Assembly (NCBI GenBank): GCA_019135865.1
Contig: JAGVVD010000058.1
Span: forward strand, 62,001-126,000
DNA: 64,000 nt
Origin: Elusimicrobiota bacterium
Lineage (GTDB): Bacteria; Elusimicrobiota; Elusimicrobia; Elusimicrobiales; UBA9959
Reading direction: 5' to 3'
Positions 61,477 to 64,000 of this stretch are shown piece after piece. The translations under genes were made by a program, and so were the position numbers. The notes under the pieces were generated by a model, which had not been told where the DNA came from, did no database searches, and saw nothing but the letters and a program-made list of their open reading frames with translations. Position 1 is the stretch's first letter. Every line of letters starts with the position of its first letter.

Positions 61477-61586
61477 AAACGACCTGATAAATGTTAACTT
61501 AAACCGGGCGTCCGCCCAAGGGCCCGTGAGCCCAGCCGGTCCCGGAAAAAGGGCCTACGCCTTTCTGGGTCTTTGGACCCCCGCGT

Positions 61587-61616
61587 TTGACGGCACGCCG
61601 CCGGCGCTGATATAAT
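61587..61616 (+). promoter_or_regulatory. Promoter of the first TetR-type gene
   Basis: TTGACG (61587-61592), an 18-base spacer and a perfect TATAAT (61611-61616). The predicted transcript starts about 9 bases before the ATG at 61632, leaving no room for a Shine-Dalgarno site, and none is visible. Confidence 0.7.
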
Positions 61617-61631
61617 CGTTCCTGTCTCCCC

Positions 61632-62240
61632 ATGAAAAAGGACCGCAATAGCAGGCCCACCAAGGGCGAAGCCACTCGCGAGAAGATACTGCGCGCGGCC
61701 ATACGAATGATCTCGGACCAGGGCCCGGACGCGGTGTCCATGGAGAGCATCGCCGCGGAGCTGGGCCTGACCAAGCCGCTCCTGTACTACTATTTCAGGA
61801 ACAAGGAAGCGCTGATAGAGCGGGTCTTCGAGGAGACCTCGCGCGAGTCCGGCGGCGACTGGGCCGCCGCGCTGGACCCCTCCGTCACGCTGGAGGCCCT
61901 GGTGCGGGGCATGCTGGAGAGCCGCATGAACTTCTTCCTCTCCAATCCCGAGGCGGCCAAGTGCCTGCTCAAGCTCTACGCGGCTCCGGAGAACTCCCCC
62001 CTGCGCCGCATGGCCGACGGGCGCATAGCCCGGCACGCCGGCGCGCTTAAAAAGGTCATGGCCGCGATGGAGAAGGACGGCCGCCTCCCGCCCGGCTCCG
62101 CCGAGGACGCCCGCCTGCTGGTGCGCGGCGTCATGACGCTGACCATCTTCGAGTTCCAGCACAGCCGCTTCGCCAACTTCCCCCCGGACTTCGCCGACCG
62201 CATGGCCCGGCGCGTCGCCGCCGCCGTCGCCGCCCGCTGA
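61632..62240 (+). CDS. TetR/AcrR-family transcriptional regulator
   Basis: 202 residues. The N-terminal HTH (TREKILRAAIRMISDQGPDAVSMESIAAELGLTKPLLYYYFRNKEALI) is textbook TetR. The C-terminal helical ligand domain is unassigned. It is a close relative of the N-terminal part of the next protein (shared GPDAVSM, TKP-LLYYYFR-KEALI). Lacks an SD and seems nearly leaderless. Probably regulates the efflux genes that start just downstream. Confidence 0.9.
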   Translation: MKKDRNSRPTKGEATREKILRAAIRMISDQGPDAVSMESIAAELGLTKPLLYYYFRNKEALIERVFEETSRESGGDWAAALDPSVTLEALVRGMLESRMNFFLSNPEAAKCLLKLYAAPENSPLRRMADGRIARHAGALKKVMAAMEKDGRLPPGSAEDARLLVRGVMTLTIFEFQHSRFANFPPDFADRMARRVAAAVAAR

Positions 62241-62263
62241 AAGCCCCGCTCCCCCCGCGGACC

Positions 62264-62308
62264 TTGACGGCGCGGCGGCGCTTCTGCTAAACTTACCTAC
62301 CGGTAAGT
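62264..62308 (+). promoter_or_regulatory. Promoter and palindromic operator before the TetR-TolC gene
   Basis: TTGACG (62264-62269) is followed after 17 bases by a weak -10 CTAAAC (62287-62292). Overlapping it is the interrupted palindrome ACTTACC-TACC-GGTAAGT (62291-62308). The position over the -10/start region and the symmetry fit a TetR-family operator, so repression by one of the two encoded TetR domains is likely. Confidence 0.7.
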
Positions 62309-62330
62309 ATATACAGCGACGGAGCACAGC

Positions 62331-64000
62331 ATGACCCCTCCCCGACAGAAGCGCGCCGTAGAGACCCGGCGCAGGATACTCGAGACGGCCTCGGAGATGA
62401 TGGCCGAGCGCGGCCCGGACGCGGTGTCCATGCGCGAGATCTCGGCCAGGCTGAGGATCACCAAGCCCGTCCTCTACTACTATTTCAGGGACAAGGAGGC
62501 GCTGATAAAGGCGGCCTTCGAGGAAGGGACCAAGCATTTCAAGGACGTGCAGGTGGAGATGGACCAGCCCGGCCTGGACCTGGAGGGCAAGCTGGAGAAG
62601 ATCTTCGCCAACCACCTCAAGTTCATAAACCGCTACCCGGAAATGCCCAAATGCGCGCTGAAGATCATGGCCTCGCCCTCGGAAGGGACGCTCGCCCAGA
62701 TGGCCAGGGACCTCAAGGAGCGGAACAGGGGCGCGCTGCGCGCCATGCTGAAAAAGGAGAACTTCTCCCCGCGGGCGGCGGCGGACATAGTCCACATGAT
62801 AAGTTCGGTGATAACCTATTTCATGGTGGAGGCGCGCGAGAAAGGCGCGGCCGCCATCGACCGGAGCCTGCCGCGGCGCCTGGCGCGCATGATCTGCGCC
62901 GGCGCGCGCTCGCTCAAGTCCGCGGCCGCCGTCCTGCTGCTGCTCCCCTCCCTGGCCGGGGCGGAGCCGGTCCGGCTGGGGGTGGACCAGGCGGTGGAAC
63001 TGGCCCTGGAGAGGAATACGGACGTCGTCAACGCGGAACACGGCCGCCTCATCTATAAGGAGAAGATCCGCGAATACTGGGGCACGCTCTACCCGCAGCT
63101 CAGCGCGGCCGCCTCCTATACCCGCAACATAGAGAAGCCGTCCATGTTCTTCGGCGGGAACAAGATATCCATAGGCTCCGACAACGCCTACGCCGCCTCG
63201 CTCGACCTCAACCAGATACTCTGGGCCGGCGGCAAGGTGCGCACGGGCATAGAGATGGCCGGCATCTACTCCGACTCCAGTTCCGAAGGTCTGCGCGCCG
63301 CGCAGAACGGCGTGCGCAAAGCCGTCACGCAGATGTACTATTCCGTCCTTCTCTCGAAGGCCATGGCCGACATACAGCGCGAGACGCTGGACCTCTCCCG
63401 CCAGCATCTCTCGGTCATAGAGACCCGGTATAAGCAGGGGCTGGCCAGCGACCTGGCCCTGCTGCGCCAGGAAGTGGAGGTGTCCAACAACGAGCCGGCC
63501 GTCACGCAGAACCTGAACTACTACGAGTCCGGCCTGCTGGCGCTCAAGGACCTGCTCGGCATGGACCCCGACGCGGAGATCGAACTTGCCGGCGGCATGA
63601 CCTGCGCGCCCGGAGAGCCCGGGGCGCTCGAGGACCTTTACCGGGCGGCTATGGCGGCCCGGCCGGAGTACAGGATGGCGAAACTCGACAAGCGGCTGGC
63701 CGAGGAAAGCGTCACGCTGGAAAAAGCCGGCCATTACCCCTATCTCAACGCCTTCGCCTCGCGCAGTTTCCAGGGCCAGACCGACAGCGGCTTCCCCGGC
63801 GGCGACGAGCGCAGCTGGGCGCTGACGGCCGGGGTGAAGCTGAGCCTGCCCCTCTTCGCCGGCGGCTCGGTCTCCTCGCGCGTGAAGCAGGCCGACCTCT
63901 CGCGCCAGGTGGCGGAAGAGAACCTGGGTGCCGCGGAGCGGCAGCTAAAGATTACGGTCAAAAAGGCCTGGCTGGAGCTCAGGGAAGCCTCGCAGCGCCT
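62331..64000 (+). CDS. TetR-type regulator fused in frame to a TolC-like outer-membrane efflux protein (3' end outside window)
   Basis: An open frame runs from the ATG at 62331 (GGAG six bases upstream) to the right edge, 556 codons with no stop; I traced the codons line by line through the junction. Residues 1-190 are a full TetR protein (HTH with GPDAVSMREISARLRITKPVLYYYF). Residues about 190-214 read as a signal peptide (GARSLKSAAAVLLLLPSLAGA). Residues 215 onward are an OEP/TolC domain (VDQAVELALERNTDVVNAE, AASYTRN, AGGKVRTG, VETRYKQGLASDLALLRQEVEV). An internal ATG at 62890 could give a normal exported TolC, though no SD is seen before it. A DNA-binding and an outer-membrane domain in one chain is very odd. 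Confidence 0.85.
   Translation, partial: MTPPRQKRAVETRRRILETASEMMAERGPDAVSMREISARLRITKPVLYYYFRDKEALIKAAFEEGTKHFKDVQVEMDQPGLDLEGKLEKIFANHLKFINRYPEMPKCALKIMASPSEGTLAQMARDLKERNRGALRAMLKKENFSPRAAADIVHMISSVITYFMVEAREKGAAAIDRSLPRRLARMICAGARSLKSAAAVLLLLPSLAGAEPVRLGVDQAVELALERNTDVVNAEHGRLIYKEKIREYWGTLYPQLSAAASYTRNIEKPSMFFGGNKISIGSDNAYAASLDLNQILWAGGKVRTGIEMAGIYSDSSSEGLRAAQNGVRKAVTQMYYSVLLSKAMADIQRETLDLSRQHLSVIETRYKQGLASDLALLRQEVEVSNNEPAVTQNLNYYESGLLALKDLLGMDPDAEIELAGGMTCAPGEPGALEDLYRAAMAARPEYRMAKLDKRLAEESVTLEKAGHYPYLNAFASRSFQGQTDSGFPGGDERSWALTAGVKLSLPLFAGGSVSSRVKQADLSRQVAEENLGAAERQLKITVKKAWLELREASQR

Follow-up and report, generated by a model that had tools for sequence, protein, structure and literature searches.

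One reading frame joins a TetR-type regulator to a TolC-type channel in Elusimicrobiota, a putative two-protein precursor

Efflux operons of the AcrR-AcrAB-TolC and MtrR-MtrCDE type combine a TetR-family repressor, an operator over the promoter, and an outer-membrane factor with its adaptor and RND pump, the repressor and the channel being separate proteins. In another bacterial setting, signal peptidase cuts the FbcH cytochrome b/c1 precursor of Bradyrhizobium japonicum into two proteins at an internal signal peptide. CadC and ToxR are membrane-bound one-component regulators whose DNA-binding domain is held at the inner membrane. Here, we describe a gene from an Elusimicrobiota bacterium (GenBank assembly GCA_019135865.1, contig JAGVVD010000058.1) that resembles the first of these systems in its parts but encodes repressor and channel in one reading frame. 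The window analysed is a stretch of 64,000 nucleotides (positions 62,001 to 126,000 of the contig, forward strand), with the fusion gene at its right edge (Table 1).

The fusion frame opens with the ATG at 62331, leaves the window and reaches its stop 199 nt beyond the edge (equivalent to 64199), with the last 66 codons and the stop outside; in the contig it encodes 622 aa with 0 internal stops. An initial annotation, made from the letters alone, had described a single frame passing from TetR into a signal peptide and TolC with no stop between, and this is borne out by the frame, the junction sequence and Pfam, which places TetR_N at residues 16-62 (whole-protein E 1e-15) followed by two OEP repeats (E 2e-59). 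The TetR half scores 57.5 bits against PF00440 (cut-off 24), has an all-helical C-terminal ligand/dimerisation domain of normal length with predicted helices to about residue 195, and is matched by TetR structures in the PDB both by sequence and by fold. The TolC half scores 201 bits against PF02321, in two stretches, and its best NCBIfam match, TIGR01844, lies below cut-off (167 vs 225). AlphaFold was run on L071, an orthologue 83% identical to the window's fusion, and gave a model of modest confidence (mean pLDDT 68.6) with TetR helices to residue 171 and at 180-201, a low-confidence stretch at 195-214, and then the TolC topology of paired long helices and beta hairpins, twice. PDB matches of this model include TetR structures and, at modest confidence, TolC/OprM as the top hits for the channel fold. 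Among the PDB matches listed, no chain spans both halves. The contradiction in topology that the annotation had pointed out, a DNA-binding domain joined to an outer-membrane protein, is a real puzzle, just as the fusion and the signal peptide are real.

Table 1. Coordinates of the features at the TetR-TolC locus, given as window positions.
Feature	Position	Strand	Basis or remark
Stand-alone TetR paralogue, 202 aa, directly upstream of the fusion	61632..62240	+	among loci examined only in the window's genus (G000, G018, G019)
Promoter-like element: -35 TTGACG (62264-62269), 18-nt spacer, -10 TAAACT (62288-62293)	62264..62293	+	sequence; most family members have TTGAC...TATAAT here
Operator-like inverted repeat ACTTACCTACCGGTAAGT, arms TTACC/GGTAA, 4-nt spacer	62291..62308	.	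between -10 and start codon
Shine-Dalgarno GGAG of the fusion gene	62321..62324	+	sequence; duplex -5.8 kcal/mol
TetR-TolC fusion gene	62331..64000, continuing past window edge	+	open frame, no internal stop
TetR_N helix-turn-helix, residues 16-62	62376..62516	+	Pfam PF00440; no change in recognition-helix residues among the fusions
TetR ligand-binding/dimerisation helices, to about residue 193	62517..62909	+	helices predicted on L071; sequence matches to solved TetR regulators
Internal signal peptide, residues 183-211	62877..62963	+	n-region 183-196, hydrophobic core 197-208, AGA cleavage motif 209-211
Internal ATG, earlier proposed as a second start	62889..62891	+	not conserved (ATG in 1/47); without Shine-Dalgarno
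TolC / outer-membrane factor half, residues 212-622, running past the window edge	62964..64000	+	PF02321 twice; AlphaFold topology; PDB matches TolC/OprM

The TetR paralogue that the annotation had placed beside the fusion is present and shares about 37% identity with the TetR half. The minus strand carries a 746-aa open frame (window 61494-63734) opposite the two TetR genes and the fusion; it is probably a by-product of high G+C codon use. On the 3' side of the fusion and outside the window lie genes for an RND adaptor (292 aa; RND_mfp, 161 bits, cut-off 95) and then an RND permease (1029 aa; ACR_tran, 888 bits). Adaptor and pump genes follow tolC, fused or split, in 33/33 loci checked, and their order is kept in relatives.

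Searching related genomes for the same fusion, as the annotation had proposed, recovered it uninterrupted in 47 of the 59 genomes of the window's family, from 10 of 13 genera and at 36-84% identity. Fused genes from other families of the same class (G169 and G212) group with the main fusions, at forks that are unresolved in the tree. Purifying selection acts on both halves (dN/dS about 0.05-0.2), and synonymous changes far outnumber non-synonymous ones in the TetR half, the TolC half and the junction. Relatives with two separate genes and a conserved stop, which the annotation had set against a true fusion, do occur outside the fused clade, in the sister family and other lineages, but within the family the fusion is the rule. 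One stop, flagged with the G006 and G007 matches, sits upstream of the start codon and outside the frame.

A systematic search for single-frame TetR_N+OEP proteins, with the phylum as its scope, gave further cases. A second, different fusion in the window's own genome (L010, G000:C27, 6550-8490, minus strand, 646-aa ORF) is preceded by a TetR gene and followed by an adaptor and an RND pump; its TolC half has its nearest counterpart in a split gene of G325, and its TetR half resembles the main group. The 4.8-kb stretch L010:4374-9165 has 96% DNA identity to G047, a genome of another genus, which suggests that the shared stretch was recently transferred. The third fusion (L187, G235:C12, 1713-3638, minus strand) comes from a distant class of the phylum and carries a different operator-like palindrome, TGACTGACTGGTCAGTCA, beside TATAAT. 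Candidates resembling it in G236, G242, G243 and G334 proved to be split genes, and candidates outside the phylum, in Calditrichota, Ignavibacteriota, Nitrospirota and others, were adjacent separate genes. Plasmid matches to the fusion covered the TolC half only, none reaching the TetR half. The window's genome also has separate tetR and tolC genes overlapping by ATGA at another locus (L011, G000:C31, 3888-5836), followed by adaptor-like and ABC-exporter-like genes.

Split, re-split and decayed copies serve as natural controls. The sister family Elusimicrobiaceae and some further lineages have tetR and tolC as separate genes: a stop is followed within a few bases by an ATG, usually with an MKK-type signal peptide, and this stop/ATG falls at the same place as the fusion junction. 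One genome nested among the fused relatives is re-split (G055; L061, G055:C11, 2116-4115): the TGA of its tetR overlaps the ATG of its tolC (ATGA), and tolC has regained its own start codon and signal peptide. The second copy of G053 (L045, G053:C47, 3395-4930) has lost most of TetR by an in-frame deletion (profile positions 46-176) and is still joined to an intact TolC, with an operator-like site upstream. In G163 (L182 / L084, G163:C64), TetR is broken into two frames or frameshifted ahead of TolC; unless the assembly is wrong, TolC must have an internal start here, and either real decay or assembly error may be the cause.

Nearly every fusion is preceded by a TTGAC...TATAAT promoter that leads into TTACCGGTAGGTAA or near variants, ending a few bases 5' of the ATG; in the window's genus the operator-like site is written in the opposite orientation (ACTTACCTACCGGTAAGT). 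The 2.95-Mb genome contains 1 perfect CTTACCNNNNGGTAAG site, at the fusion promoter. An operator-like site of the TTACCGGTAGGTAA type also precedes many split tetR-tolC pairs, in the sister family and even in Ignavibacteriota. The overlap of the site with the fusion promoter family-wide and its single occurrence in the genome make it very probable that the TetR half is the repressor of its own operon. With the invariant recognition helix, this is the pattern to be expected of an autorepressor.

At the junction, residues 183-211 (RLARMICAGARSLKSAAAVLLLLPSLAGA, followed by EP) resemble a signal peptide, with a positive n-region, a hydrophobic core and an AxA motif, and run on directly from the last TetR helix. 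The Sec-type signal peptide is internal in the precursor, behind about 196 TetR residues, and not N-terminal, a statement that concerns the precursor and not the mature TolC part. It is present in all fusions. Permissive counting of AxA motifs is uninformative alone and column conservation was used in its place: columns 209 and 211 are Ala in 32/47 and 38/47 homologues.

The initial annotation had left two options at this junction, a single fused protein that must be cut or an internal start at 62890 with nested output of a second product. The internal Met codon is there, slightly displaced, at 62889-62891. A nested gene, in which TetR is made only in the fusion or rarely and most TolC comes from an in-frame internal start (at 62889, at residue 165 or at species-specific sites), has this well-placed ATG in the window's genome in its favour. 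Residue 165 (window 62823) is the commonest ATG of the region (33/47), and in principle a TolC precursor with an n-region of 32 residues could begin there; in nine homologues an ATG (MK) immediately precedes the signal core and could be used as a start. These sites, together with the broken TetR of G163 if its assembly is right, weigh against a cleaved precursor. The ATG at 62889, however, is an ATG in 1/47 homologues, is Ile or Leu in both sister species and has no Shine-Dalgarno, and was rejected as a general mechanism; residue 165 is Ile, Leu, Asn or His in the other 14 and likewise stands without a Shine-Dalgarno. Of the 47 homologues, 14, both sister species included, have no ATG, GTG or TTG within the 30 codons preceding the hydrophobic core. 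Shine-Dalgarno pairing, which averages -1.8 kcal/mol at the internal sites, falls short of that at arbitrary in-frame sites (-3.0) and far short of that at the next gene's start (-4.9). A signal peptide kept while its start codon is lost is expected only if the signal works inside a longer chain, and the sole re-split member, G055, gained both a stop and a proper ATG. We consider a nested gene unlikely, and the comparative evidence favours the first option. The coupling of regulator and channel amounts that the annotation foresaw still follows, from 1:1 synthesis in one chain and not from nested output. A TetR-only product made by frameshifting was also considered and rejected: a +1-frame stop lies near the junction in most genomes, but such stops are nothing unusual along the rest of the gene, and there is no conserved slippery site.

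A second alternative would reduce the TetR half to a relic that supplies only a start codon and the n-region of the signal, with regulation left to others such as the upstream paralogue. The extra TetR gene of the window's genus fits this, as does the second copy of G053, with only TetR fragments in frame with TolC, but purifying selection acts on the TetR half, its recognition-helix residues are invariant, and the operator-like site is conserved throughout the family, whose examined loci lack the extra TetR outside the window's genus; a relic is quite improbable. It is also very improbable that the fusion stays uncut and acts as a single chain, its TetR domain staying on a TolC in the outer or inner membrane. 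The lack of a stop and the conservation of both halves would suit such a protein, but a DNA-binding domain on an outer-membrane channel has no DNA within reach, and the conserved AxA columns directly follow a short core of the kind that cleaved signals have. Finally, an assembly or sequencing error that removed a stop or frame change near 62880-62930, conceivable in a draft of 59 contigs, is refuted by the relatives, since the same open junction, with substitutions typical of coding sequence, recurs in 47 separate assemblies, and on this comparison the fusion is genuine and conserved, neither chance nor artefact.

The gene is probably a two-protein precursor, an autorepressor and a channel split by signal peptidase. 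This reading draws on the uninterrupted fusion in 47 genomes, with those of G169 and G212 alongside; on purifying selection in both halves together with the invariant recognition helix and the operator-like site; on a signal peptide retained after loss of its start codon, with weak internal Shine-Dalgarno pairing; on the stop/ATG-MKK of split relatives at the junction and the TGA/ATGA and signal peptide regained by G055; and on the G053 copy that stays in frame with TolC despite its TetR loss, with adaptor and pump in every locus checked. In the mechanism that we infer, from DNA binding and Sec targeting through cleavage and tethering to the topology and abundance of the products, one chain would be translated from 62331, the TetR half first and the TolC half by the same ribosome. 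The TetR half would bind the inverted repeat over the operon promoter and presumably be released by a pump substrate. TetR's own last helix would provide the positively charged n-region of the internal signal, whose hydrophobic core would engage Sec and lead the TolC chain across the inner membrane, where signal peptidase I may cut after AxA (A211 here). TolC would proceed to the outer membrane and join the adaptor and RND pump encoded next, and the repressor would stay on the cytoplasmic side, probably tethered by its membrane-embedded C-terminal signal-peptide stub until trimmed.

A bolder extension, which we hold to be doubtful, is that each exported channel leaves one membrane-tethered repressor, fixing the repressor:TolC ratio, and that the state of the repressor (uncut, tethered or released) reports export capacity, its activity being set by Sec translocation, signal peptidase and ligand together. 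If this were true, the recurrent fusions in the phylum (the main clade, the C27 type and G235) would reflect selection for coupling.

The locus offers a conserved natural example in which a cytoplasmic transcription factor shares its chain with an outer-membrane protein. Ordinary annotation would call such a gene an error or give it one function only. Should the proposed processing take place, gene regulation would include signal peptidase as one of its steps, and the gene itself would fix the regulator:channel ratio. The split sister genes, the reversion and the TetR-deleted copy make the idea directly testable. No earlier description of a TetR-TolC fusion was found in the open-access papers searched, and mention in subscription journals or annotation databases is possible. 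The parts, a TetR repressor and an RND efflux set, are ordinary; the single-chain arrangement appears to be new. Its closest relatives in content are the adjacent tetR and tolC genes of Elusimicrobiaceae and other bacteria (L086-L104, L115, L117), with homologous products, an operator of the TTACCGGTAGGTAA type in many and, in Elusimicrobiaceae, the same adaptor-RND order; unlike the fusion, they have a stop and their own ATG-MKK signal peptide between the genes. The nearest mechanistic precedent known to us is FbcH, likewise a two-protein chain cleaved at an internal signal, although both of its products are respiratory membrane proteins, whereas here a cytoplasmic DNA-binding repressor would part from an outer-membrane channel. 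Like CadC and ToxR, the TetR product would have its DNA-binding domain fixed at the inner membrane; in contrast to them, its anchor would be the signal-peptide stub of another protein, its DNA-binding domain is of the TetR type, and its periplasmic part would have been removed.
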